DNA of 37,858 bases, taken from positions 1-37,858 of the IMG/VR virus record IMGVR_UViG_3300050821_001591; one strand, given 5' to 3'. The position numbers were made by a program, and so were the translations under genes. Source of the DNA: a virus. The notes under the pieces were generated by a model that had not been told where the DNA came from, made no database searches, and was given only the letters and a program-made list of their open reading frames with translations. Positions within the stretch are counted from its first letter, which is position 1. Each line of letters opens with the position of its first letter. Shown here piece by piece: positions 1,519-37,858 of the stretch.

Positions 1519-3222
1519 ATGGCTTTCGCAAATAGCTCAATTTCGGATATCATCGCGACCAATATCCAGAGCAGAACTGGAGAGTTGGCCGACAACGTTT
1601 AATTGGACGTTGTAAAACTGGGTGAATTCGGTGAACGCTGAGATGCCAATACCGAGCCAAGCCAGAGACGGAGATAACATCAAGGGCTTTGGAAGGTGTA
1701 ACGACTAGATGGTGACGAAAGAATAACCCATCCACGAGCGCCCGGAGTTTGTTTCAACCAGCTAGAGAGGGGAATCCCGAATGGCAATTATCTACGCGAT
1801 AGAATGCATAAAGAACGGCAAAGCATATGTGGGATGTACGCAGAAGATAAAGAAGCGGATGCGCGAGCATTTGTGCCTTCTGCGAAACGGAAAGCATGCG
1901 GAACCGTCCTTTCAGGCGGACTTCAACCTTTATTCGGAATCGGACTTTCGCATTTTTGCGCTCCAGGAAGTGGAAAATACGCTGGAGCAAAAGAGAGGGC
2001 GGGAGCTGTATTGGATGGGGCGGTACGACTGCAAGGGTCTTTTGTACAACCGCAACAAGACATCGTTTCAACCGACCGAGAAAGCGTGGAAGAAGGGACA
2101 ACCCAGAGCCACAGCGGTCGAAGGAAAGAAGCGATCTCCAGAAGCGAATCTAAAGCGCAGATTGGCTCAACTTGGTATCCCAAAAGGGCACGGCGCGAAG
2201 ATCAGCGCAACCAAGCAGGCGAAACGGACTATGAGATAGTCTCCTCTGCATCGAATAAAAGATGTAGGCTGCGGATAAAGAGCTGCGGCACTAAGGCCAG
2301 GACTTACAACAACGCTCTTCTCACGCGTCTCAAAAAGCGCGGGAATCACAAGCCCTTTAGTGGGGGCAATGTGATCCTCGAAGAGATTATGTATAATGAT
2401 AGTACCACGAACAACACGAACTCCTATGCGGGTTACGAAGTGTTGAACGTGTCTCAGAATTCGCCCATCAGTGCTGCTCAGTTCAATATCAGCCAGTACG
2501 CTTCCGCTATCTCCATTTCCGGCCTGGAAATGATCCAGAATAGCGGCAAGGAGGCCATTATTGACCTTCTTGATGGGCGTATGAATGTTGCTGAGGCACA
2601 GTTGGCGAACCGTATCGCTGGCGATCTGTATCTCGACGGCACGGGCAACAGCGGTAAGAACCTCACAGGTCTTGCGGCTGCTGTTTCAACCACGCCGACT
2701 TCTGGAACCTATGGTGGCATCAATCGCGCCACATGGACCTTCTGGAATAACGTCGCATATTCTGGCGTGACGAATGGTAGTTCCACTGTTTCAGGGTCCA
2801 ATATCCAATCGTATATGGATTCTGTGGCTGTTCAGTTGATCCGTGGCACTGATAAGCCGGACTTAATTACGGCTGATAACAATTACTACCGCTTTTATCT
2901 ACAATCACTCCAAGCTATCCAACGTGTTCAAAGCGAAGGCGATGAAATGGCCGGCATTGGCTTTTCCTCGCTCAAGTATTTCGGCGCTGGTATGGCTTCG
3001 GATGTGATCTTGGATGGCGGTATCGGTTCGGATCAGACCGCGAATACGATGTTCTTCCTGAATACGAAGTACATCTTTTTCCGGCCTCATGCGGATCGTA
3101 ACTTTGTGCCGATTGGCGGCGAGCGCCAGGCCATCAACCAAGATGCCATCGTGAAATTGATCGGCTGGGCGGGGAATCTGACCTCCTCTGGCGTTCAATT
3201 TCAAGGCGTCCTTTCGGCCTGA
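1519..3222 (+). CDS. Major capsid protein, interrupted by a group I intron (exons 1519-1599 and 2302-3222)
   Basis: Exon 1 has a good ribosome site (GGAGAA) and encodes 27 residues ending LADNV, then runs into a TAA stop. After 702 bases the same frame resumes with TYNNALLTRLKKRGN and continues through GGNVILEEIMYNDST to the stop at 3220-3222. Joining GTT (1597-1599) to ACT (2302-2304) restores a 333-aa coat protein of a family common in short-tailed phages, whose members read continuously across this junction (DNV-x-x-NNALL). The second exon holds the HK97-like core segments, including GLEMIQNSGKEAIIDLLDGR. The exact splice bases are inferred from the P1 pairing and from frame. The 166 residues preceding exon 2 in the same open frame are intron sequence, not protein. 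Confidence 0.9.
1600..2301 (+). ncRNA. Group I self-splicing intron in the coat gene
   Basis: The 702-base insertion splits the coat gene in frame. Its 5' end can form P1: exon bases 1592-1599 (ACAACGTT) pair with 1606-1613 (GACGTTGT), giving seven Watson-Crick pairs and a U-G pair at the splice site, as group I introns require. A P7-like pairing joins GACTA (1703-1707) with TAGTC (2237-2241), embedded in the usual conserved contexts (AAGGTGTAACGACTAGA and GAGATAGTC). The intron would end at G2301. An endonuclease ORF sits between the two P7 strands, and its stop codon lies within the 3' strand. Intron class and folding were judged by eye. Confidence 0.85.
1781..2239 (+). CDS. GIY-YIG homing endonuclease (intron-encoded)
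   Basis: 152 aa with the GIY-YIG fold at the N-terminus: IIYAIECIKNGKAYVG (residues 3-18) carries the two signature strands, KKRMREH supplies the conserved Arg and His, and GRELYWMG then LLYNRN supply the catalytic Glu and the late Asn. The C-terminal 60 residues are Lys/Arg-rich and likely bind DNA (NUMOD-like or unstructured). Known role: it cleaves intron-less copies of the coat gene so that repair copies the intron in. It has its own ribosome site (GAGAGGGG, 1764-1772). Its last codons overlap the 3' P7 strand of the intron core, a constraint seen in other intron-encoded nucleases. Confidence 0.92.
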   Translation: MAIIYAIECIKNGKAYVGCTQKIKKRMREHLCLLRNGKHAEPSFQADFNLYSESDFRIFALQEVENTLEQKRGRELYWMGRYDCKGLLYNRNKTSFQPTEKAWKKGQPRATAVEGKKRSPEANLKRRLAQLGIPKGHGAKISATKQAKRTMR

Positions 3223-3766: not shown

Positions 3767-3804
3767 TCTAGTGGACGAATAACATAGAACTGGGAAACTA
3801 CCTG

Positions 3805-4617
3805 ATGAATATCGAGGTCACTTGTGCCTATCCCGATTCGCTCATCTGGGCGAATGTGGAGAAAAATTCGCGCTCTTGCTCGAATTGGCTCAAGACAGTT
3901 CCGGCTCACGATGGGCATGCCGTCATAGTAGGCGGCGGTCCATCATTGACGGACAAGATGCAGCTTATCAAGAACAGGGTCAGCCTCGGTCAGACAGTTT
4001 TTGCCTTGAACGGTGCTGGCCCTTTCTTGAACAAGCATGACATAATCCCGGATTATCAAGTGTTCCTGGATTGCTTGCCGACTATGACGGAACGCATTGG
4101 CGAAGCGAAAAATTATCTTATCGGGTCGCAATGCGATCCCGTGATGCTGACAGCGGTACCTAATCCAATTCTATGGCATACCGCTATTGAGCATATGGAA
4201 GATCATCTCCCGGAAGATCGGAAATCGAGCGACAGTTATTGCTTGGTAGGTGGGGGTGGGGCCACCGTAGGTTTATCTACTTTGGCGCTTGTCTATGCCC
4301 TCGGCTATCGCAAGATTCACCTATTTGGGTATGACTCTTCCGCAAAAAATGGCAATGGTCATGCCTATGAAGTCCCTAGCGAAATCCCTGGTGTCCAGGA
4401 ATATATCGGGGGCGTCCCGATTGGATATGTGGATGTTGAGCTGAATGGAAAACATTTCCAATCCACGCTATCCATGACCCGACAAGCTGAATTGTTCCCG
4501 GAAGTGTGTCAGGCCCTCCATTTGCGTGGCTGTGCCGTGACCGTGGATGTTCACGAAGATTCAATGATGGCGGAAGTGCTGCACATGATGAACGCAACGC
4601 AGCCCATGGCTGCCTAG
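3805..4617 (+). CDS. DUF115 / Maf-like glycosyltransferase-fold protein
   Basis: 270 aa. A nucleotide-binding style strand-loop, AVIVGGGPSLTDK (about 39-51), is followed by VFALNGAGPFL, a G-rich turn VGGGGATVGLSTLALVYALG (about 148-167) and IHLFGYDSS. This order resembles the DUF115 family (archaeal MptE-like pyrophosphokinases and the bacterial motility accessory factors Maf that glycosylate flagellin). Such genes occur between virion genes in several short-tailed phages. The substrate is unknown; modification of a virion or host surface component is a guess. The start lacks a strong ribosome site (weak TGGGAAAC). Confidence 0.65.
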   Translation: MNIEVTCAYPDSLIWANVEKNSRSCSNWLKTVPAHDGHAVIVGGGPSLTDKMQLIKNRVSLGQTVFALNGAGPFLNKHDIIPDYQVFLDCLPTMTERIGEAKNYLIGSQCDPVMLTAVPNPILWHTAIEHMEDHLPEDRKSSDSYCLVGGGGATVGLSTLALVYALGYRKIHLFGYDSSAKNGNGHAYEVPSEIPGVQEYIGGVPIGYVDVELNGKHFQSTLSMTRQAELFPEVCQALHLRGCAVTVDVHEDSMMAEVLHMMNATQPMAA

Positions 4618-6529: not shown

Positions 6530-8112
6530 GCGGAATGGGATTACCATCGCCACTTCGCGGCTGGACGCCTCCAGGCTTAAATGCTCGCGCCGATAGCCTT
6601 CCAGCTCCCATTGGAGGTTGGAATGCGCGCGACGCTCTGGCGAACATGGACCCGATGGATGCGGTCATTCTCCAGAATTTCTATCCCACGCCAAGCAATG
6701 TAGTGCTACGTGGCGGCTCAACCCCCTACGCCACCGGCATGACTGGTCAGATCGGTACGCTACTGAATTACAATTCAGGCTCTACGGAAAAATTCTTCGC
6801 TATTGATAGTTCTTATGGAATTTTCGACATTAGTTCCGGTGGGGCAGTTGGATCGGCTGTCGTTAGCGGGCTGTCAAACAACTATTGGGAATACACCAAT
6901 ATCACGACGCCGGGCGGTGGCTACATGCTGCTCTGTAATGGTGTGGATTCCATTCGCCGCTTTGATGGTACGACTTGGCTTACTATCACAGGAACCGGAA
7001 CTGGGGCAATTACCGGCGTTACGACTTCCACAATAGATAACATCATCCTATTTCAGAATCGTATCTGGATGGTGCAGAAGAACACGCTTGTCGCTTGGTA
7101 TCTTGGTACATCATCCGTCGCTGGTGCTGCATCGACATGGGATTTGACGGGCATAGCTCGCAGAGGCGGCTATATCGTTGATGTTGGCGTATGGACGATT
7201 GATGCAGGTTATGGCGTCAATGACAACCTCGTATTCATCACCAGCAACGGCGAAGTGATTGTTTACCAGGGAACTGACCCATCTAGTGCGTCCACATTTG
7301 CACTCATCGGTGTCTGGCAATTAGGTTCTCCCATCGGCCATCGCTGCATGATAAAATACGGCGGCGACATCCTGATCCTGAATTATGATGGGCTTCTCCC
7401 ACTGGCTGAGGCTCTACAATCATCGCGTCTTGATCCTCGCGTGGCGCTTACGAATAAAATTCAGGGCGCCATTACCAATGCGTTGCAGAGTTATAGCACA
7501 GGGCCGACATCTCTCTATTGGCAGATTTTCTACTACCCACTCCAGAACGCCATTATCCTCAATGTCCCAATCTCCGCCAGTGGGCAACAGCAATACGTGA
7601 TGAACACGATTACTAAAAGCTGGTGCAACTTCACCAACTGGCAAGCCAATGTATTCGAGCTTTACCAGGATCAGGCGTATTTCGGGGCCAATGGTATGGT
7701 GTTTACGGCATGGGATGGGACATATGCCGATAGCGGCGTTTCTACTCTGGCGCTTGGCCTCCAAGCCTTCAATTATTTTGGCGAGCGGGGGACGATAAAA
7801 TACTTCACTCGAATGCGGCCGAATATTTCAACCAATGGGCAGCCCATTATCTATGCGAACATGAACACGGACTTCAATATCGTCTGCGATTACAATCCAA
7901 TCTCCTACTATCCGCAGACTTCAGGCGAATGGGGAAGCGCACTTTGGGGTAGTGGCATGTGGGGTTCAGGTCTAATCAACCAAGCAAATTGGCAGGGTGT
8001 GAACGGCATTGGGTATTGTGGAGCGGTTCAGTTCAAAACTCAAACGGCTGGGATACAGATTCAATGGGCAGCAACTGACATCGTGTTTCAAAACGGATGG
8101 CAAGGGATATGA
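6526..8112 (+). CDS. Tail hub / DNA stabilization protein, P22 gp10-like
   Basis: 528 aa, beta-rich, with APIGGWNARDALANMDPMDA near the N-terminus (about 27-46), then PSNVVLRGGSTPYATG. This opening is characteristic of the large tail-hub proteins that replace P22 gp10 in many Proteobacteria phages. Repeated Trp/Tyr/Gly strands and GSALWGSGMWGSG near residue 475 suggest a propeller-type body. P22 gp10 (472 aa) joins gp4 to the needle. Coupled by ATGA to the genes on both sides. Tail location is inferred from order and motif. Confidence 0.7.
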   Translation: MSGMGLPSPLRGWTPPGLNARADSLPAPIGGWNARDALANMDPMDAVILQNFYPTPSNVVLRGGSTPYATGMTGQIGTLLNYNSGSTEKFFAIDSSYGIFDISSGGAVGSAVVSGLSNNYWEYTNITTPGGGYMLLCNGVDSIRRFDGTTWLTITGTGTGAITGVTTSTIDNIILFQNRIWMVQKNTLVAWYLGTSSVAGAASTWDLTGIARRGGYIVDVGVWTIDAGYGVNDNLVFITSNGEVIVYQGTDPSSASTFALIGVWQLGSPIGHRCMIKYGGDILILNYDGLLPLAEALQSSRLDPRVALTNKIQGAITNALQSYSTGPTSLYWQIFYYPLQNAIILNVPISASGQQQYVMNTITKSWCNFTNWQANVFELYQDQAYFGANGMVFTAWDGTYADSGVSTLALGLQAFNYFGERGTIKYFTRMRPNISTNGQPIIYANMNTDFNIVCDYNPISYYPQTSGEWGSALWGSGMWGSGLINQANWQGVNGIGYCGAVQFKTQTAGIQIQWAATDIVFQNGWQGI

Positions 8113-17949: not shown

Positions 17950-18471
17950 TCACAGTGTTTTGAGGAAGATTATCTTCCCCGGCACAATAACCCTTGTTGC
18001 TTCGCCGGTCGCCAGCGCGGCTCGTATCTCTTTGTGGAATGGGAAATTGACCTGATGGATATTCCGATCAGGGTACTTCTTGCCCTTCCACACGACATGC
18101 TTCCGTGTCGTGGTCACGCCCATGCGCTTGAATCCGGTGGCAGCGTAGATCGTTCCTTGGTGTCCGAAGGACGGATCGGCGTAGCTTAAAATCCGCCTGA
18201 TGCCCTTCCGCTTCAAGTCTCGAAACATCACGGCCAGATATCTACTCTCGCTGTTGGGTGGCAGATGATCCTCAAGGACAAACCGGCGCAGTTCGAGCAG
18301 AGGTTGGCCATCATCATATTTCCGGCTTACGTTAAAAGCCGCGGGCAGGCCGAAGATGGCACCCCCGACAACTGTAAAGCCATCCATGACGGCATAACAG
18401 TGCGTGGTTGTGACTCCGAATATCGAATGGGAATAGTGGACGCGCTCTATGATCTCTTGGATGCGCGACAC
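17950..18471 (-). CDS. Mom-like DNA adenine modification protein (GNAT fold)
   Basis: 173 aa from GTG 18471; the open frame extends to 18606 but that part is the tRNA-like gene read as protein. Motifs in order: IIERVHYSHS; VVGGAIFGLPA; LLELRRFVLED with PPNSESRYLA; ILSYADPSFGHQGTIYAATG with F and G-V-T. The N-S-E-S plus SYAD-x-x-x-GH-x-G-x-IY-x-A-x-x-F pattern is that of phage Mu Mom and relatives, which add a methylcarbamoyl group to adenine and block many restriction enzymes. Residue-level recall of Mom is from memory, so the subfamily is probable, not certain. It lies in the early-type accessory cluster, apart from the virion genes. Confidence 0.72.
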   Translation of the reverse strand: MSRIQEIIERVHYSHSIFGVTTTHCYAVMDGFTVVGGAIFGLPAAFNVSRKYDDGQPLLELRRFVLEDHLPPNSESRYLAVMFRDLKRKGIRRILSYADPSFGHQGTIYAATGFKRMGVTTTRKHVVWKGKKYPDRNIHQVNFPFHKEIRAALATGEATRVIVPGKIIFLKTL

Positions 18472-18487
18472 TTCGCATTCTTCAACA

Positions 18488-18560
18488 TGGAGCGGTGAGG
18501 TCGGAATTGAACCGCCTTCTCTCGGAAGGACCGAGCGCACTACCAATGTGCTATCCCCGC
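18488..18560 (-). tRNA. tRNA-Gly-like gene with a shortened anticodon loop (possibly defective)
   Basis: 73 bases with encoded TCCA tail. Acceptor GCGGGGA pairs with TCACCGC (one G-A mismatch); D stem GCAC/GTGC with a GGTA loop; T arm GGCGG-TTCAATT-CCGAC (one mismatch). The anticodon arm is CTCGG/CCGAG, leaving only a five-base loop, TCCTT, where seven are needed; the alternative four-pair stem gives a GTCCTTC loop. U73 and the acceptor resemble Gly tRNAs. Either a decayed tRNA or an unusual one. Confidence 0.6.
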
Positions 18561-18569
18561 AAAACATTT

Positions 18570-18848
18570 CTACACCTTCACCAAATCGCGCGGACCATTC
18601 CAGCAATTCGTGCCATCGACGGAGCGGTCAAGAACAACGCCGCCAGGAATGTCCGATATGAAATTCTGCACCCTTGCGCGCGGACTACCGCGCATGACGA
18701 TGCGGACCTGATCGCCAATCTTGAGCGGGACATTGTTCTTGTCTACTGCGCCGCTTGCGCCATGGTCCACCTCAAGATGCATTCTCATAGGAGCGCCACC
18801 AGTGATCCGAAGCTGGCAGTGGGGGCATCTCTCAAGTTTCTTTGTCAT
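18570..18848 (-). CDS. Zinc-finger-like small protein (92 aa)
   Basis: ATG 18848 after an AATAAGGGAGCGGG element. A C2H2-like knuckle occupies residues about 8-30 (CPHCQLRITGG then MHLEVDHG). A basic beta domain follows (LKIGDQVRIVMRG; GPRDLVKV) that resembles a KOW/SH3-type RNA- or protein-binding barrel. No known family named. Confidence 0.7.
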   Translation of the reverse strand: MTKKLERCPHCQLRITGGAPMRMHLEVDHGASGAVDKNNVPLKIGDQVRIVMRGSPRARVQNFISDIPGGVVLDRSVDGTNCWNGPRDLVKV

Positions 18849-21648: not shown

Positions 21649-22872
21649 ATGTCAGACTTTGAGTTTCACCAGGCCGAAGGCGAGGCACCAATCAAGACCT
21701 GGACAAAGGGCGTCCAGATCGAGCCCCAGGCCATGGCGCAACTCCACAACGTCGCCAAGCTACCATTCATCCACAAGCACATTGCGGCGATGCCGGATGT
21801 GCATTGGGGCATGGGTGCCACCATCGGCAGCGTGATTGCCAGCAAGGGTGCCATCGTGCCAGCGGCGGTCGGCGTGGACATCGGCTGCGGGATGATGGCG
21901 GTGAAGACCACCCTGCGGGCTGAACAGCTTCCCGACAATCTTCACCAGACCAGGCTGGATATCGAGGCGGCAGTCCCGCATGGCCGCACGGACAACGGCG
22001 GGGCCAATGACCGGGGCGCATGGCATGACCTACCGGCTGAGAGCGTCGAGCGGTATGCCCCTCTGTCGGCCCGCTATGACGCCATAATCGGCAAACATCC
22101 CAAGGCCAAAGCCTACAATTCCGCACGCCACCTTGGCACGCTGGGAACCGGGAACCACTTCATAGAGCTTTGCCTTGATGAAATCGGCGCGGTTTGGGTG
22201 ATGCTGCACAGCGGTTCGCGCGGTGCAGGCAACAAAATCGGCATGTATTTTATCGAGAAAGCCAAGGAGGAAATGCGCCGGTATTACATCGACAAATTCC
22301 TACCCGATCAAGACTTGGCCTATCTGGTGGATCATACCGAAATCTTTGATGACTATGTGGAGGCGGTCCATTGGGCGCAAGACTTCGCCTGGGAGAACCG
22401 TCACGCCATGATGGACGCGGTGCTGCGCGCTATGCGCCTAACGCTTCCACCTTTCGAGGCAACTGACATGGCCGTGAACTGCCATCACAATTATGTGGCG
22501 CGCGAAAACCACTTCGGCGCCAACGTGCTAGTGACCCGCAAGGGGGCCGTCCGGGCGCGCGAGGGTGATCTCGGTATCATCCCTGGCAGCATGGGGACGG
22601 GCAGCTTCATCGTGCGCGGCAAGGGCAACGCCGAGTCGTTTCATTCCTGCTCGCACGGTGCTGGACGGGCCATGTCGCGTGGCGCGGCCAAGAAGATGAT
22701 TACGCTGGAACAGCACGCCGAGGCCATGAAGGGTATTGAGGCGCGGCTTGACGCCGATGTGATCGACGAGAGCCCTGCGGCCTACAAGAACATTAACGCC
22801 GTCATGGCGGCTCAGACGAGCCTTGTGGACATCGTGCATCGTCTGCACCAAGTCCTAAACGTGAAGGGCTGA
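21649..22872 (+). CDS. rtcB: RtcB RNA-splicing ligase
   Basis: 407 aa, the same length as E. coli RtcB (408). Key motifs are intact: AAVGVDIGCGMMAV (metal-binding Asp and Cys), LGTLGTGNHFIEL, MLHSGSRGAG, AVNCHHNYV, IIPGSMGTGS and SFHSCSHGAGRAMSR with the His that takes GMP. RtcB joins RNA 2',3'-cyclic phosphate or 3'-phosphate ends to 5'-OH ends using GTP and Mn. In phages it is thought to repair tRNAs cut by host anticodon nucleases. It starts eight bases after the DUF5131 remnant and is followed by a phage tRNA-Pro on the other strand. Base composition looks richer in G+C than the virion genes, suggesting recent acquisition. Confidence 0.95.
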   Translation: MSDFEFHQAEGEAPIKTWTKGVQIEPQAMAQLHNVAKLPFIHKHIAAMPDVHWGMGATIGSVIASKGAIVPAAVGVDIGCGMMAVKTTLRAEQLPDNLHQTRLDIEAAVPHGRTDNGGANDRGAWHDLPAESVERYAPLSARYDAIIGKHPKAKAYNSARHLGTLGTGNHFIELCLDEIGAVWVMLHSGSRGAGNKIGMYFIEKAKEEMRRYYIDKFLPDQDLAYLVDHTEIFDDYVEAVHWAQDFAWENRHAMMDAVLRAMRLTLPPFEATDMAVNCHHNYVARENHFGANVLVTRKGAVRAREGDLGIIPGSMGTGSFIVRGKGNAESFHSCSHGAGRAMSRGAAKKMITLEQHAEAMKGIEARLDADVIDESPAAYKNINAVMAAQTSLVDIVHRLHQVLNVKG

Positions 22873-22877
22873 GAAAA

Positions 22878-22954
22878 TGGTCGGGAGAGCAGGATTTGAA
22901 CCTACGGCCTTCCGGTTCCGGGCCGGAAGCTCTACCAGGCTGAGCTATCTCCCG
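22878..22954 (-). tRNA. tRNA-Pro (anticodon CGG), C at position 33
   Basis: 77 bases with CCA encoded. Acceptor CGGGAGA/TCTCCCG (C1-G72 as in bacterial tRNA-Pro), D stem GCTC/GAGC with AGCCTGGTA loop, anticodon stem TCCGG/CCGGA with loop CCCGGAA, T arm GTAGG-TTCAAAT-CCTGC. All stems pair. The base before the anticodon is C instead of the almost universal U33. It lies eight bases beyond the RtcB stop codon, on the opposite strand. Confidence 0.92.
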
Positions 22955-27217: not shown

Positions 27218-27257
27218 CCTCCGGGCTGGGCTAGCGTTCTGGGGTTTAGCCCGGAGG
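27218..27257 (-). promoter_or_regulatory. Leader hairpin upstream of the recombination operon
   Basis: Perfect ten-base inverted repeat CCTCCGGGCT (27218-27227) and AGCCCGGAGG (27248-27257) with a 20-base loop, ending about 12 bases before the AGGAG of the first minus gene. It has no U-run, so an attenuator or translational control hairpin is likelier than a simple terminator. Confidence 0.6.
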
Positions 27258-27736: not shown

Positions 27737-28074
27737 CAACTTACATTCTCCAACAGCCGCCTAGTCTCAATGCAATGTATTACAATGTCGCTGGTAAAGG
27801 CCGGCGCAAATCGCATCAATATATTTCGTGGATACGTGGCGAGCTAAAGGCACTGATCGCACAGCGCGCGAAACCATTTGAAGGACCAGCCAAGGTCATT
27901 ATCACGTGCCCGAAAACTCGCGGCGATATCGACAACCGCATCAAGCCTACATTGGACTTGCTTGTACGCGCTGGAGTATTGCGCGATGATCGTTCGGACT
28001 ATGTGCGTCTGGTCGAGATCAAATGGGCGAGCGATATTCAAATTATGCATGTTGAACTGTTGCCATGCAAATAG
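27733..28074 (+). CDS. rusA: RusA-family Holliday junction resolvase
   Basis: 113 aa, close to the usual 120. N-terminal PPSLNAMYYNVAGKGRRKSH matches the RusA start (P-P-S-x-N-x-x-Y). The catalytic Asp cluster is RGDIDNRIKPTLDLLVRAGV then LRDD. It cuts four-way junctions symmetrically as a dimer, clearing branched DNA before packaging. It belongs functionally with the Rad52-like and NinB-like genes on the other strand. Its 3' end overlaps the next ATG. Confidence 0.92.
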   Translation: MTTYILQQPPSLNAMYYNVAGKGRRKSHQYISWIRGELKALIAQRAKPFEGPAKVIITCPKTRGDIDNRIKPTLDLLVRAGVLRDDRSDYVRLVEIKWASDIQIMHVELLPCK

Positions 28075-28262
28075 GTGGCGACATTCCGAGGCCATGGGTT
28101 TTTCCCGCTTGGATTTGGGACCGTCGCTTGATGATGTGGGAATACTGTCATTTCGTAACTGATCCGCGCACTGGCGAGAGAATATTCGATAGCTGGATCG
28201 CGCCCCCGATTTATTGCGATTGGGGCCATGATCATGCCGGCGTCAAATGGTGGAGCGCATGA
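28065..28262 (+). CDS. Trp-rich small protein (65 aa)
   Basis: ATG lies within the last codons of RusA (10-base overlap) and the stop overlaps the next ATG (ATGA). Contains many Trp and aromatic residues (PRPWVFPAWIWDRRLMMWEY; YCDWGHDHAGVKWWSA). No family recognised; compact coupling makes it credible as a gene. Confidence 0.55.
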   Translation: MQIGGDIPRPWVFPAWIWDRRLMMWEYCHFVTDPRTGERIFDSWIAPPIYCDWGHDHAGVKWWSA

Positions 28263-28654
28263 GGATCACAATCCGCGATATCGAATGGGTTGTTTGTGCA
28301 AAGTTCAAGCTCTCGTCATCTGAGATTCGTGGGCCGCGCCGGTTCAGGCGGATCACCGGCCCTCGCCACATTGTCATGTTCCTAGCCAGAGAACTGGCCG
28401 GCGCGTCCTACCCAAAGCTTGGGCTCTATTTTCATTGTGATCATACCACGGCTATGCAGGGCGTCAGGCGCGTTCAGAGCCTCATACAGACCAATCCTAA
28501 GGTCGCCGCCTATGTGGATGAGTGTCGGGCTGCGTTTGCTCCTGTAATAGCCCGTAGAGCGCAGGAGAATGCATTGGTCGAGGGATTGCTTCGAGGTGAA
28601 GTGTCGTGGCCCCGGCAATCACAAAAGTTATCCACAGGCCAAGAATCCGCTTGA
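28259..28654 (+). CDS. DnaA domain IV-like DNA-binding protein
   Basis: 131 aa from ATG 28259. ITIRDIEWVVCAKFKLSSSE, then RRITGPRHIVMFLARELAG, SYPKLGLYF and CDHTTAMQGVRRVQSLI reproduce the helix-turn-helix and the DHTT signature of the C-terminal domain of DnaA, which reads the DnaA box. No AAA+ ATPase domain is present. Phages carry such stand-alone domains near replication genes. A perfect DnaA box lies in the last codons of the gene. It may steer host initiation to phage DNA or block host origins. Confidence 0.85.
   Translation: MRITIRDIEWVVCAKFKLSSSEIRGPRRFRRITGPRHIVMFLARELAGASYPKLGLYFHCDHTTAMQGVRRVQSLIQTNPKVAAYVDECRAAFAPVIARRAQENALVEGLLRGEVSWPRQSQKLSTGQESA
28628..28636 (+). promoter_or_regulatory. 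DnaA box, perfect consensus
   Basis: TTATCCACA (28628-28636) is the high-affinity DnaA box, here overlapping the end of the DnaA-domain-IV-like gene and bordering the structured noncoding region. No second perfect box was seen nearby. Confidence 0.7.
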
Positions 28655-28791
28655 CGCTTGGAACCTTCGGCGTAGTCTCAGAAACAGCAAAGCCACCCCG
28701 TCGAAAAGGTGGCCTTGTGTCCGAAGGGTAAGCTTCGGGAATTGGTTCGCGCAACCAAGACCTATTTTAGCGCGACCAATCCCAAAATCAA

Positions 28792-28811
28792 CCCCTAGGA
28801 CGAAATAGGGG
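28792..28811 (+). terminator. Possible terminator hairpin
   Basis: CCCCTA and TAGGGG form a six-pair stem with an eight-base loop, followed by CTTT. A modest intrinsic terminator for the operon ending at 28654, or part of the larger structured region. Confidence 0.35.
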
Positions 28812-28865
28812 CTTTAACTACCACGACTTGAGCCTGTGGGTAGTTCCACCGGCAGACCTGTCGCG

Positions 28866-28921
28866 CTCCAAACATTTGAAATGTAACCATATTTGTCATA
28901 TGGGCGCGTTGGAGGCTTTTT
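28866..28921 (+). terminator. Branched hairpin followed by T-run
   Basis: CTCCAA (28866-28871) pairs with TTGGAG (28909-28914), enclosing CATTT-G-AAATG and CCATAT-TTGTC-ATATGG hairpins; GCTTTTTGC follows. The T5 run suggests a transcript end for a structured RNA. Confidence 0.4.
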
Positions 28922-29207
28922 GCATGGCTGAAACGCGCGTAGATCACCCGCCAGGAAGGAATTAGCGAGTAATTGGTACAGCCTGACCGCCAGCCGATAT
29001 ATATCGGTCGTTATGCAAGACGTTCTAAGCTACCGGAAACCTCAAATGTACCGTGAGTTTAGGCTGTAATTTCCCCACAGCGGGGGAATTACGCCCATCG
29101 CATCCGTTGCCTAAATGCCCGTAAGCGTCAGTGAGCAGCAAGCCAATTAAAAGGCTTGCGTTGCGAACTGGCGTGATAGTGAAAACTACTACCGAGCGAA
29201 GCGAGGA

Positions 29208-29236
29208 TTGCAGAACTAGATTTAATATGTTAATAT
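29208..29236 (+). promoter_or_regulatory. Promoter for genes from 29261
   Basis: TTGCAG (29208-29213), exactly 17 bases of A/T-rich spacer, then TAATAT (29231-29236), 25 bases ahead of the ATG at 29261, with GAGG just before it. A convincing sigma-70-like promoter by eye. Confidence 0.6.
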
Positions 29237-29260
29237 CAAAAATCGTCTGCGCGAGGTAAA

Positions 29261-29503
29261 ATGGTGACGCTTCAAGGCGAAATACGCCAAATCATCGAAG
29301 AAATGAAAGCCAAGGCGCTGGAATCCGGCGATCCAGACAAAGAGCGCGAGACAACCGAAATAGCCACTATCGTCCTAGCCCAATCATTACCGGAAGTTAC
29401 CGACGATATGCCAGCCGCTCTTCTTTCCTGCCACGCTAGAAGCGCTGTAGCGCGTGCCTGGATGGCTTACGCGACCAAGATGCTCCAGACTGCTCACTCA
29501 TGA
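29261..29503 (+). CDS. Small acidic helical protein (80 aa)
   Basis: Ribosome site GCGAGG before ATG 29261, downstream of a good promoter. Two charged helices (GEIRQIIEEMKAKALESGD; ETTEIATIVLAQSLPE) and an Ala-rich third helix (SAVARAWMAYATKMLQ). The stop overlaps the next start. Unknown. Confidence 0.68.
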   Translation: MVTLQGEIRQIIEEMKAKALESGDPDKERETTEIATIVLAQSLPEVTDDMPAALLSCHARSAVARAWMAYATKMLQTAHS

Positions 29504-29649
29504 GCCAATTGCCGTCAGAAGCTATCTTACGCGATCTGGTGGCAAAATTGCCGAAGGGCAAACAACGCAAGAAGCTTATGGTGTTTTTGCCGCTTCTGGC
29601 AGAGATACACGAAATGAACGTCAAGGCTGCCAAATATGATCGAGATTGA
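29500..29649 (+). CDS. Very small helical protein (49 aa)
   Basis: ATG overlaps the previous stop (ATGA). Basic helix (DLVAKLPKGKQRKKLMVFL) then an amphipathic helix (LLAEIHEMNVKAAKYD). Overlaps the next mini-gene by 14 bases. Unknown. Confidence 0.5.
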   Translation: MSQLPSEAILRDLVAKLPKGKQRKKLMVFLPLLAEIHEMNVKAAKYDRD

Positions 29650-29728
29650 TCTGGCAAATGGCGGTCAACTCGCAGCGATATTCCTCGGCTGCATTCTAGC
29701 GCTATACGCTGTGTTCGCTGCGCGCTAA
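29636..29728 (+). CDS. Membrane micropeptide (30 aa)
   Basis: ATG inside the end of the previous gene. Short acidic start (MIEIDLANGG), one hydrophobic span (LAAIFLGCILALYAVFA) and stop after AR. A classic single-span micropeptide; function unknown. Confidence 0.45.
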   Translation: MIEIDLANGGQLAAIFLGCILALYAVFAAR

Positions 29729-29799
29729 ACGCAATAATCTGTTAAAACAATTCCAATGTGCAAACAAAACCTAACCAGAACATCACGCTATAACCCCAC

Positions 29800-29828
29800 T
29801 TGACGCCTCGTAGAGTTCCAAGCAAAAT
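29800..29828 (+). promoter_or_regulatory. Promoter for the packaging operon
   Basis: TTGACG (29800-29805), 17 bases, CAAAAT (29823-29828), about 44 bases before the ATG at 29872. It is the last good promoter seen before the terminase and virion genes, so it could drive late transcription. Confidence 0.55.
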
Positions 29829-29871
29829 CGTCCACAACGCATCGTGCGCGCGTAACCTCAATGGTCGCTAG

Positions 29872-30048
29872 ATGAACAGATTCCTCCGCCAAAAACCCAA
29901 GCTCATCCAAACACCTCATCCAACTGGCGGCACAACCATGAATGCTCCTCCGCCCAAGGTCGTCAAACTCGACCCAAACTCCCAACTCGCTAAAGCCTTC
30001 CAAGCAGCTCACGCAAAACTCAATCCTGATACACCGGACGCAGCGTAA
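29872..30048 (+). CDS. Small Pro/Gln/Lys protein (58 aa)
   Basis: Open frame 29872-30048 with an internal alternative ATG at 29938. Reads NRFLRQKPKLIQTPHPTGG, then PPPKVVKLDPNSQLAKAFQ and AHAKLNPDTPDAA. Little structure is predicted; no strong ribosome site at either start. It ends three bases before the putative small terminase gene, which supports it as a real gene. Confidence 0.5.
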   Translation: MNRFLRQKPKLIQTPHPTGGTTMNAPPPKVVKLDPNSQLAKAFQAAHAKLNPDTPDAA

Positions 30049-30051
30049 TCC

Positions 30052-30294
30052 ATGCCAGCGCGTAAGAACCGTGGCTTAGGCGAACTAGACAATCACTGGA
30101 AACAGAAAATCCAGAAGAGTGTCTTGGTAACTCGCTTACATGACAATGCCTTAGGCAAAATAGAAATGAGCCGAGGCCAGATTGAAAGCGCAAAGATATT
30201 GCTGCGCAAGGTCGCTCCCGATCTCACCACGGTCGCTGTCGGCCAGGAAGAGACGCTTGGTCCAGTCCAAATCACATGGAAATCAAAGCCTTAG
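30052..30294 (+). CDS. Putative small terminase subunit or terminase-associated protein (80 aa)
   Basis: Reads IQKSVLVTRLHDNALGKIEM, then SRGQIESAKILLRKVAPDLTTV. The pattern R-L-x-x-x-x-x-G-x-x-x-M-S-x-x-Q-x-x-A-x-x-LL-x-K-x-x-PDL resembles the middle region of small proteins encoded before large terminases in short-tailed phages, several annotated as small terminase. It is shorter than a typical small subunit and lacks a visible N-terminal helix-turn-helix. The large subunit lies about 2 kb downstream. Confidence 0.55.
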   Translation: MPARKNRGLGELDNHWKQKIQKSVLVTRLHDNALGKIEMSRGQIESAKILLRKVAPDLTTVAVGQEETLGPVQITWKSKP

Positions 30295-32231: not shown

Positions 32232-33599
32232 ATGGGCGGGGATTTGGCTAAGATCATTGAGCTTCCCTACGCGCCCCGTGAGGCTTTCCAGCCGTTCCAC
32301 GATAGAACGAGCCGCTGGGGGTGCCTGGTGGCCCATAGAAGGGCCGGGAAGTCTACAGCCGCCATCAATGATCTGATCCGCGCTGCTCTAACCTATCCTA
32401 TCCATAAGATCGGGGATGGTTACTGCCCAGCCTATAGTTACTTCGCTCCCTTCCGATCTCAAGCCAAAGCTGTGATCTGGGACAGGCTGAAATGGCATTC
32501 CGCGCCCGTGCTCAAAGCCTCGAATGAGGCCGAGCTCAAGGTCACGTTGATGAACAACGCGACCGTGAGCCTATTCGGTGCCGATAATGCCGATGCCGCA
32601 CGCGGCTTAGGCTTCGATGGAATGCTCTGCGACGAATACGGAGATTTTCGTCCGTCCATCTGGGGCAATGTTCTCAGGCCCACTCTTTCAGATCGCCAAG
32701 GCTGGGCCGTATTCATGGGCACTCCAAAAGGTAAGAACCAGTTCTTCGATATATACGACATGGCACGTTCGAACCCGCGTGAATGGTTCTGCCTCACCCT
32801 CAAAGCCAGCCAATCCGGCATCTTGCCACAGGAGGAAATTGATGCCGTCAGGGCGCAACTCTCGGAAGATCAATTCCTCCAAGAATATGAATGCAGTTTC
32901 GAAGCTGCCATCCTCGGTGCCTTTTACGGTACAGAGTTGCGGGAGCTTGATGAACGCGGACGAATTCGAGATGTTCAATATGATCCTGCACTGTCAACTT
33001 TCACCGCGTGGGATATTGGACATTCTGACGACACTTCAATCTGGTGGTTCCAGCCTCACGGAAACGAACTTCGGATAATCGACTTCTACAGCGTCTCAGG
33101 TTCCGGCGTCGAGGATGTTGCTAACTTTGTTGCTTCCAAGCCGTATCACTACGAGAAGCATTATCTTCCCCACGACGCAGTAGCCAAGACATTTGCTGCG
33201 AACGGCAAATCAACCATCGAGCAAGTCGTGGCGGTTCTCGGATTCGGCAATGTCGGGATCGTGCCAAAACTATCCGTGCAGGATGGTATCCAGGCTGTGC
33301 GTGCTACGCTTCCATTCTGCTATTTCGACGCCAAGAAGTGCAAGCAAGGTATTGAGGCACTACGCCAATACGAGCGGGAATATGATGAGGATACGAAAGC
33401 ATTCCGTCTCTCTCCCAAACATAATTGGGCCTCGAATCCTGCCGACGCTTTCCGCTACCTCTCTCTTTCCTGGCGAGAACAGCCCGCCAAACGCAAGATC
33501 AATCCCGAACCTATCCTCATGGTCGGTAAGGGAGGTACGGCCACCATGGATGACATGTGGGCTGCAAACAAACACCGCAACCGTTATCAGAGGATTTAA
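32232..33599 (+). CDS. Terminase large subunit
   Basis: 455 aa. ATPase domain: Walker A in AHRRAGKST (residues 34-42) and Walker B with acidic pair in GMLCDEY (D134, E135), followed by a coupling MGTPKGKNQF motif. The RNase H-like nuclease domain begins near FTAWDIGHSDDTSIWW with its first catalytic Asp, and continues with IIDFYSVSGSG and the late ASNPADAFRY Asp. It packages DNA into procapsids and cuts concatemers. The ribosome site is GGAAGG close to the ATG. Confidence 0.96.
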   Translation: MGGDLAKIIELPYAPREAFQPFHDRTSRWGCLVAHRRAGKSTAAINDLIRAALTYPIHKIGDGYCPAYSYFAPFRSQAKAVIWDRLKWHSAPVLKASNEAELKVTLMNNATVSLFGADNADAARGLGFDGMLCDEYGDFRPSIWGNVLRPTLSDRQGWAVFMGTPKGKNQFFDIYDMARSNPREWFCLTLKASQSGILPQEEIDAVRAQLSEDQFLQEYECSFEAAILGAFYGTELRELDERGRIRDVQYDPALSTFTAWDIGHSDDTSIWWFQPHGNELRIIDFYSVSGSGVEDVANFVASKPYHYEKHYLPHDAVAKTFAANGKSTIEQVVAVLGFGNVGIVPKLSVQDGIQAVRATLPFCYFDAKKCKQGIEALRQYEREYDEDTKAFRLSPKHNWASNPADAFRYLSLSWREQPAKRKINPEPILMVGKGGTATMDDMWAANKHRNRYQRI

Positions 33600-35698: not shown

Positions 35699-37858
35699 AT
35701 GGCGACCAAGCCGGATGATGATGTTCAGAAATATCTAGAGATCATAAGCTCGTACGAAACCGAGTTTAAGAAATGGGAAGGCCGTGTCACTAAGATACTC
35801 AAGCGGTATCGTGATGATACGCGCTCTGCCTCAGGCAACGAAACCGCCAAGTATAACATTCTTTGGGCCAACGTCCAGACATTAAAACCTGCAGTCTATG
35901 CGCGGATGCCAAAAGCTGATGTTTCACGGCGCTTTGTGGATAACGATCCTGTCGGGCGCGTAGCAGCCCTACTTCTAGAACGGACGCTCGATTATGAGAT
36001 CGAGCATTACACCGATTTTCGTTCGTGCATGGATCATTCCGTCGAAGATCGCTTCCTTGGTGGCCGCGGTGTCGGTTGGATCAGATATGAGCCCAAGATC
36101 GAAGCAGCGGAGGACGAGCCGGAGGATGGAATTGAGATCAGCGATGTCGCGGAAGTTGAAGGACCCGAAGAAGCCAACGGTGGTGATGCTGAAAAAGAGA
36201 AAATGGAGCGCATCGAATCTGAGTGTTCGCCCACCGATTATGTCCATTGGAAAGAGTTCGGACATGAATGCGCCCGCACATGGGAAGAAGTAACTAAAGT
36301 CTGGCGCTGGGTTTATCTCACGGAGGAACAATTCGCGGGACGTTTTGGCAAGGAATTAGCCAAGAAAGTCTCGTTCGATCAAGCGCCCGACGCTCTCAAC
36401 AAATATACACAGCAATCGACGGCAAAGAACCGCGCCCGTATCTGCGAGCTTTGGGACATGGACACCGAATGTGTTTATTGGCTTTCTAAGCACTATCCTC
36501 ACATGATCGACGAGAAGGATGATCCTCTCGAATTGGAGGGATTTTTCCCGTGTGGAAAGCCGCTCTATGCGACCACGACCTCAGACACACTCGTTCCCGT
36601 CCCTGATTTTGTCCTTTATCAAGACCAGGCCAATGAACTTGATATTCTCGCTGACCGGATTGATGGTTTGGTCAAGGCGCTCAGAGTCCGAGGCGTTTAC
36701 GATCAATCCGTGCCGGCCCTCCAGCGGCTTCTCACGGAAGGCGAAAATAACACCCTAATCCCGGTCGATAAGTGGCTGGCATTCGCTGAAAAGGGTGGGC
36801 TCAAGGGAGCGATTGACCTTCTCCCGATTGATACGCTGGCCGCGTGCCTACTCCAGTGCTATCAAGCACAATCCAACGTCAAGCAGCAGATTTATGAGAT
36901 TACTGGCATATCGGATATTATCCGGGGCCAAGGCGCTGCTTCTGAAACGGCTACAGCACAGCAAATCAAAGGCAACTACGCTAATCTGCGTCTTAAGACG
37001 ATGCAGGATAGTGTGGCGTTATTTGCCTCGGACCTTTTGAAGCTCAAGGCCCAGATCATTTGCTCGAAGTATCAGCCCAAGACGATTCTTGAATATGCGG
37101 CTGCGGATCAGATGAGCCCGGCTGACAAAGCTGTAATTCCCCAAGCCATGCAGCTTTTGCAATCAAACCCACTCCGCAAGTTCAGGATTGAGGTCGAAGC
37201 CGATAGCCTTGTCATGCTGGACGAACAGCAGAACAAGGAAGATCGGGTAGAATTCATCAAAGCCGCTTCCATGTTCATTCCTCAAGCTGTATCTGCCGCC
37301 AGCCAAATCCCCGAAATGGCTTCTACCATGATGCAGATGATCCAGTTCTTTGTGGGAGCTTACCCGCAGGCACGGCCTATTGAAGGCACCATTGACCAAG
37401 CCCTACAGCAGCTACAGGCCAAAGCTGCCAAGATGGCCGCTAATCCGCAGCCTACCGAGGAACAGCAGAAGGCCCAAGCGGCTGCTCAGAATATCCAGGC
37501 TCAGGGCCAAGTGGATCAGGCAATCGAGCAGATAAAGACCCAGGCACAAGAGGCTGTGGCTCAAACCCAAGCCAACGCGCAAATTCAGATCGAAAACATG
37601 CGAATTAACCATCAGGCGCAGATGAAAGCCCAGGAAACGGCTGCGCAGCAAGCATTTGACCGCTGGGAGGCATTACTCAAGGCCAAAACCCAAGTTGACG
37701 TTGCGATAATTACCGCTAACAAGCAGGCCAACCTATCTTCCCAAGAAGCCGACCAAGACTTGGCCCATGAATTTGGCGCGGCGCTCATTCCACACATTAT
37801 TCCGCCGCCAGTGTCCCAAGAGCCCGATAATTCGCCTCCGGGTGGTGAACCCGCCCAA
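35699..37858 (+). CDS. Portal protein, P22-type (720 aa; continues at 1-101)
   Basis: The frame is open to the right end and ends at 99-101 after circularisation, 720 aa, nearly the size of the P22 portal (725). Helical N-terminal clip (ISSYETEFKKWEGRVTKILK), YNILWANVQTLKPAVYARMP, the central EITGISDIIRGQGAASETAT and QQIKGNYANLRLK segment that is a hallmark of portals, and a long C-terminal Ala/Gln coiled region (about 580-690) like the P22 barrel. It forms the dodecameric DNA entry ring and docks the terminase and gp4-like adaptor. Confidence 0.93.
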   Translation, partial: MATKPDDDVQKYLEIISSYETEFKKWEGRVTKILKRYRDDTRSASGNETAKYNILWANVQTLKPAVYARMPKADVSRRFVDNDPVGRVAALLLERTLDYEIEHYTDFRSCMDHSVEDRFLGGRGVGWIRYEPKIEAAEDEPEDGIEISDVAEVEGPEEANGGDAEKEKMERIESECSPTDYVHWKEFGHECARTWEEVTKVWRWVYLTEEQFAGRFGKELAKKVSFDQAPDALNKYTQQSTAKNRARICELWDMDTECVYWLSKHYPHMIDEKDDPLELEGFFPCGKPLYATTTSDTLVPVPDFVLYQDQANELDILADRIDGLVKALRVRGVYDQSVPALQRLLTEGENNTLIPVDKWLAFAEKGGLKGAIDLLPIDTLAACLLQCYQAQSNVKQQIYEITGISDIIRGQGAASETATAQQIKGNYANLRLKTMQDSVALFASDLLKLKAQIICSKYQPKTILEYAAADQMSPADKAVIPQAMQLLQSNPLRKFRIEVEADSLVMLDEQQNKEDRVEFIKAASMFIPQAVSAASQIPEMASTMMQMIQFFVGAYPQARPIEGTIDQALQQLQAKAAKMAANPQPTEEQQKAQAAAQNIQAQGQVDQAIEQIKTQAQEAVAQTQANAQIQIENMRINHQAQMKAQETAAQQAFDRWEALLKAKTQVDVAIITANKQANLSSQEADQDLAHEFGAALIPHIIPPPVSQEPDNSPPGGEPAQ
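37761..37858. repeat. Terminal direct repeat, right copy
   Basis: Exact copy of bases 1-98, lying inside the 3' part of the portal gene. Joining the two copies gives a closed genome of 37,760 bp with an uninterrupted portal gene. The short length is typical of an assembler k-mer overlap. Confidence 0.95.

Follow-up and report, generated by a model that had tools for sequence, protein, structure and literature searches.

A dense array of hairpins in a noncoding gap of an uncultivated phage, possibly an early/late junction

In lambdoid phages, the junction between early and late genes carries terminators, a late promoter and a leader. Phage lambda makes oop, a leftward RNA with a hairpin terminator at its end that shares 52 bases with the end of cII, as described in the part of the source available to us (PMC5869508). 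ROOL and GOLLD are large phage RNAs that often lie near tRNA islands, according to the portion of the account at hand (PMC12286853). Our literature search, which says little about what is in print, found no paper on hairpin-dense early/late junctions or on phage DnaA domain IV origins.

The gap described here lies in IMG/VR record IMGVR_UViG_3300050821_001591, a viral record of 37,858 bases from an uncultivated phage, the whole of which is called the window below. The original prediction reported a dense array of hairpins in it and offered a replication origin, a conserved structured RNA or a protein-binding RNA as candidates. The plainest reading is one that this prediction did not consider. 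The gap may well be the junction at which an early operon with RusA and the DnaA domain IV protein gives way to a late operon (packaging and head genes), with the hairpins serving mainly in transcription control. Of the explanations weighed here this is the likeliest, and we hold it tentatively.

The gap and its neighbours

The noncoding gap spans 606 bases (28655-29260) between an ORF of 135 aa and an ORF of 80 aa, and is the largest gap of the record as judged by eye from the ORF list. All the flanking genes are on the plus strand, so the predicted location between two plus-strand operons holds. The 135-aa protein has the Bac_DnaA_C domain and keeps DHTT, the marks of the DnaA domain IV family, and the RusA gene lies just upstream of it; the closest named matches of two early genes of this phage are in rhizobial phages. 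An Erf/Rad52-type protein and NinB are encoded on the opposite strand further left of the gap, and a strong hairpin (CCTCCGGGCT...AGCCCGGAGG, 27218-27257) was noted in the gap that separates the leftward Erf operon from the rightward RusA operon. On the other side, the terminase gene is at 32232-33599 and the portal gene starts at 35699. The major head protein is encoded within 1804-3222. The ORF at 30052-30294, about 0.8 kb after the gap, is likely the small terminase subunit; its end resembles by eye that of an ORF at 3789-4172 of locus L003, and it has no PHROGs match.

No coding signal and no tRNA were found in the gap, where the ORFs of at least 12 codons with a purine-rich upstream stretch are 13-32 codons long, the 80-aa gene aside. 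The Rfam release 15 covariance models gave no match to 28600-29300 at E ≤5. As predicted, then, no gene explains the hairpins, and neither a tRNA nor an Rfam family accounts for the gap. The features of the locus are as follows.

28247-28654, plus: small protein of DnaA domain IV only, 135 aa (PF08299, E 7e-18; phmmer matches to the solved DnaA domain IV chains 1j1v and 3pvp)
28628-28636, plus: perfect DnaA box TTATCCACA, within the 3'-terminal part of the DnaA domain IV gene
28678-28757, minus: candidate leftward RNA of about 80 nt with three successive hairpins (z -3.47 minus, -1.48 plus)
28688-28717, minus: hairpin CAAAGCCACC/GGTGGCCTTG, terminator-like, 12 pairs, weak T-rich tail
28721-28738, no strand assigned: hairpin CCGAAG/CTTCGG; alternatively 28664-28670 pairs with 28721-28727
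28737-28783, no strand assigned: long inverted repeat GGGAATTGGTTCGCGC / GCGCGACCAATCCC
28792-28811, no strand assigned: hairpin CCCCTA/TAGGGG, with TTGATTTT after it on the minus strand
28816-28845, no strand assigned: hairpin AACTACC/GGGTAGTT
28863-28921, plus: branched unit CTCCAA...TTGGAG, followed by GCTTTTT (z -1.97; T5 by eye)
28994-29007, no strand assigned: perfect palindrome CCGATATATATCGG
29066-29092, plus: 11-pair hairpin GTAATTTCCCC/GGGGGAATTAC, with the plus-strand RNA the more stable form
29125-29174, plus: long hairpin with internal loops, apex GCAAGCC/GGCTTGC, from folding of 29115-29180
29214-29243, no strand assigned: 30-base stretch with the highest AT content of the record, 13% GC; candidate unwinding element or late promoter
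29261-29503, plus: first ORF downstream of the gap, 80 aa, no family match

The 11-pair hairpin, the perfect palindrome and the branched unit ending in T5 had been named in the original prediction and all were found at these positions. Five CGCGC/GCGCG sites, three of them followed by CCAA, lie within 200 bases at 28740-28945, the densest such cluster of the window.

Two further loci of the window were noted. The RtcB RNA ligase gene (21649-22872, plus; PF01139, E 3.5e-124) lies a few bases away from a tRNA-Pro gene on the opposite strand (22878-22954, minus), and the pair may counter a host anticodon nuclease by tRNA repair. The ORF of a Mom-type DNA modification protein (17950-18606, minus; PF25680) overlaps at its 5' end a predicted tRNA-Arg on the same strand (18488-18560, minus), so the protein probably starts further inside the ORF; this tRNA-Arg was not among the Rfam matches at the cut-off.

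Hairpin excess and strand preference

Hairpins were counted as non-overlapping stems at one fixed score and compared with dinucleotide-preserving shuffles. Nine stems were found in 28655-29260 versus 3.45 ± 1.54 in 1000 shuffles; nine or more were reached by 1 of the 1000, and none matched the summed score of 154. Among 185 tiles of the window, nine or more stems occurred in five, and only the tile at 28685 reached the score of 154. The dense array is thus real. It does occupy 28690-29160, the extent first given to it, and the actual feature is somewhat larger. Raw hairpin density across loci was left out of the evidence, its GC content being uncorrected, and so was a count of GANTC, a palindromic pattern which seems to be counted differently in shuffles.

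The folding z of 28660-29240 was -3.1 on the plus strand and -4.45 on the minus strand, and on either strand none of 100 shuffles was as stable. In 120-base tiles, the most extreme of 1258 tile-strands was the minus strand at 28681 (z -5.94), with coding tiles nearly as extreme (-5.5 at 1441 and -5.3 at 3961). When the z was averaged over about 600 bases, the gap ranked first on the minus strand (-2.29), and on the plus strand a coding stretch at 3.6-3.9 kb exceeded it (-2.3 versus -2.05). The hairpin cluster is real and statistically clear for the gap as a whole, and ordinary in kind.

The two parts of the gap differ in the strand they prefer. At the left, 28678-28757 folds to -32.7 kcal/mol on the minus strand versus -25.5 kcal/mol on the plus strand (z -3.47 versus -1.48), and a G-U pair of the minus strand in the hairpin at 28688-28717 becomes an A-C mismatch on the plus strand. 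At the right, the plus strand is the more stable one for both 29020-29096 (-27.5 versus -22.4 kcal/mol; z -3.52 versus -0.88) and 29115-29180 (-28.7 versus -21.4 kcal/mol; z -3.97 versus -3.40), and the hairpin at 29066-29092 has ten Watson-Crick pairs and one G-U pair on the plus strand and an A-C on the minus strand. The difference between plus and minus z at tile 28621 was reached by 0.3% of 629 tiles, and values for the other gap tiles ranged from 2.7% to common. This modest evidence suggests a leftward RNA from the left part and a rightward RNA from the right part.

Transcription signals are near chance frequency. Two terminator-like sites were found in 28000-30100 versus 2.5 expected, the sole one in the gap being the minus-strand site at 28717-28688 with its weak tail, and among the plus-strand hairpins only the branched unit has a T-run. 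Promoter-like sites numbered 4 versus 2.1 expected and reached 8.8 per kb per strand at a loose setting, too frequent to be of help. One of them, TTGATT-16-TAAAAT at 28791-28764 (9 of 12 positions matching, such sites being near chance frequency), precedes the candidate leftward RNA.

If the gap is an early/late junction, terminator-like hairpins at its left would halt RNA polymerase or regulate it, and the left part would probably give rise to a short leftward RNA, about 80 nt long. A structured leader would lie at the right, where late transcription, from a presumed promoter, would enter 29261 and continue to the terminase gene. Direct observation covers where the gap lies, its hairpins and how far they exceed chance, and the strand bias. 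Counted for the junction are the place of the gap between recombination/replication-type genes (RusA, DnaA domain IV) and the terminase and portal genes, its lack of coding signal, the minus-strand terminator-like hairpin at 28717-28688, the branched unit with T5, the strand-specific stability, and the hairpin-rich gaps at the matching place in two other phage groups, one of them with a shared motif (see below). Counted against it are the near-chance frequency of terminator-like and promoter-like sites, the lack of T-runs in all plus-strand hairpins but the branched unit, the after-the-fact discovery of the shared motif and the lack of a detectable homologue of the gap.

Relatives and competing explanations

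No homologue of the gap was found by blastn in phages or plasmids, and a search of viral contigs with one hairpin pattern found none either. Among 102 loci, the sole matches to the gap were L001 and L016, both copies of the window itself, and two at E 0.39. Nothing therefore supports the word 'conserved' in the proposed conserved structured RNA. As single queries, the DnaA domain IV protein found no close relatives in viral contigs or genomes, the 80-aa protein and the Erf protein found none in viral contigs, and the terminase found none in genomes. Terminase and portal queries gave 15 viral loci. The terminase has 14 viral relatives, the closest of which is 80% identical and 4.4 kb long and ends before the position of the gap; besides the window, none of the 14 terminase/portal records (L017 left out) has a DnaA domain IV gene. 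An alignment of three DnaA domain IV proteins yielded the best 80 of 85 viral loci, the closest being 43% identical and having no such gap. For 77 of these best 80 the sequence runs on for at least 700 bases after the gene, and in them the distance from the DnaA domain IV gene to the next plus-strand ORF was <100 bases in 56, 100-300 in 15, 300-500 in 3 and >500 in 3, which makes the 606 bases of the window unusual. Six relatives have more than 300 bases before that ORF; their hairpin z was -1.8 to 2.3, and all but one of them have minus-strand ORFs in this stretch.

Two other phage groups show hairpin enrichment at the matching place: a terminase-related contig, L004 (z 3.0, 0 of 300 shuffles), where the stretch includes a small possible ORF, and the Bradyrhizobium phage OP596615 (z 2.7, 3 of 300). 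Among further phage gaps, enrichment was lacking in one of L019 and two of L021. Directly after its last early gene OP596615 has GCCACC...GGTGGC followed by TTGTGTCC, as in the window, a likeness noticed after the fact. The pattern GTGGC-N1-4-TGTGTCC occurs among the 102 loci only in OP596615 and the window's own copies, and the shared motif was not found in further phages by similarity. In L004, repeated TTTTGTCC/TTGTCC elements, iteron-like by eye, lie at about 6790-7000 in the gap before the late genes.

A phage replication origin, one of the original candidates and the chief competitor of the junction reading, is possible but doubtful. The DnaA domain IV protein would bind near its own gene, the AT stretch at 29214 would melt, and the palindromes would serve as protein-binding sites or as hairpins for single-strand initiation. 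The support for it is circumstantial. The DnaA domain IV gene is directly upstream of the gap, and no replicative helicase, primase or polymerase was found among the 20 window proteins scanned with Pfam. A perfect DnaA box lies at 28628, the second of the two window copies being at 35935 in a structural gene, and the 30-mer of lowest GC in the record (29214-29243, 13%) is the AT-rich stretch expected of an unwinding element. A gap of 606 bases is exceeded in only 3 of the 77 relatives (from the best 80 of 85). However, the gap has no iterons, its direct repeats amounting to one 10-base pair, and DnaA boxes are not clustered (TTNTNCACA occurs 5 times in the window versus 4.3 expected). The cumulative GC skew, which had been suggested as a check, turns near 15 kb and at 21-22 kb and does not turn at the gap. 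DnaA-type boxes are not enriched around the best 80 of 85 relatives (5 in all), and an ORF starts within 100 bases after the DnaA domain IV gene in 56 of the 77. The protein also lacks the Arg that precedes Pro-Arg in E. coli 1j1v, having Gly instead; this Arg has a role in reading the TTAT half of the box. None of the three IHF-type matches of the window is inside the gap.

The junction and the origin may both be true of one stretch. A combined scheme, in which leftward and rightward RNAs diverge, the DnaA domain IV protein binds, and both the start of replication and the early-to-late change are governed by one 600-base element of a type undescribed before, is improbable.

It is also unlikely that the gap encodes a single noncoding RNA, large and structured, some 600 nt long and of an ornate phage kind like ROOL or GOLLD though unrelated to them. 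The length, the phage setting and the whole-gap z (-3.1 plus, -4.45 minus) would fit. However, there is no Rfam match even at E 5, the lack of relatives leaves no covariation, the left and right parts differ in which strand folds better, a split that does not suit one RNA, and the predicted helices are mostly local hairpins. Nothing yet shows a new kind of RNA here, or a replication origin.

We see little chance that the gap is a packaging or recombination site whose palindromes are recognised as DNA by a terminase or recombinase. The likely small terminase gene follows about 0.8 kb further on, and the gap contains several DNA palindromes and has clustered CGCGC/GCGCG sites (6 versus 1.8 ± 1.2; 5 of 1000 shuffles), but that cluster partly restates the hairpins, and the strand-particular G-U pairs point to RNA and not to DNA symmetry.

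Chance or neutral build-up, such as remains of a lost gene or palindromic repeats, is hardly likely given nine hairpins versus 3.5 and no repeat common to them (no direct repeat in the gap beyond the one 10-base pair), even though some coding tiles fold nearly as unusually and the closest DnaA domain IV relative (L023, among the best 80 of 85) has a gene directly after the DnaA domain IV gene, where the window has the gap. That gene encodes 254 aa and is presumably replisome-organiser-like (DUF1376), judging from similar annotated genes. A tblastx comparison showed no trace of such a gene in the gap (the best non-self match, E 0.086, fell at an unrelated position), and its remains were rejected as a source of the gap.

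Comparison with known systems

The gap is locally interesting and ordinary in kind. If it is an early/late junction, it adds a case of unusual hairpin density from an uncultivated phage. If it is an origin, it would show a phage role of stand-alone DnaA domain IV proteins, which have relatives in at least 80 viral loci.

Compared with DnaA-dependent origins, the window likewise has a DnaA domain, one perfect box and an AT-rich stretch nearby, but its gap has no box cluster, no iterons and no skew turn. Like ROOL and GOLLD, as far as the available part of the source describes them, the gap is a large structured noncoding stretch in a phage, and this phage too has tRNAs. Unlike them, it has no Rfam match or covariation evidence, its nearest tRNA is 1.9 kb away, and its parts prefer opposite strands (PMC12286853).

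The candidate RNA at 28678-28757 resembles lambda oop, in the portion of the source at hand, as a short leftward RNA near a replication gene that would end in a hairpin terminator (PMC5869508). Unlike oop, this putative RNA stops about 24 bases short of the stop codon of the DnaA domain IV gene (28654). It is therefore not antisense to that gene, and an oop-like antisense role, which would need overlap with the gene end, was rejected.

The lambdoid early/late junction is like the gap in being noncoding, in following recombination/replication-type genes and preceding late genes on the same strand, and in having hairpins and an AT-rich end. It differs in that no Q-type antiterminator or lambda-like sequence was recognised in the window, where the promoter is a candidate only.
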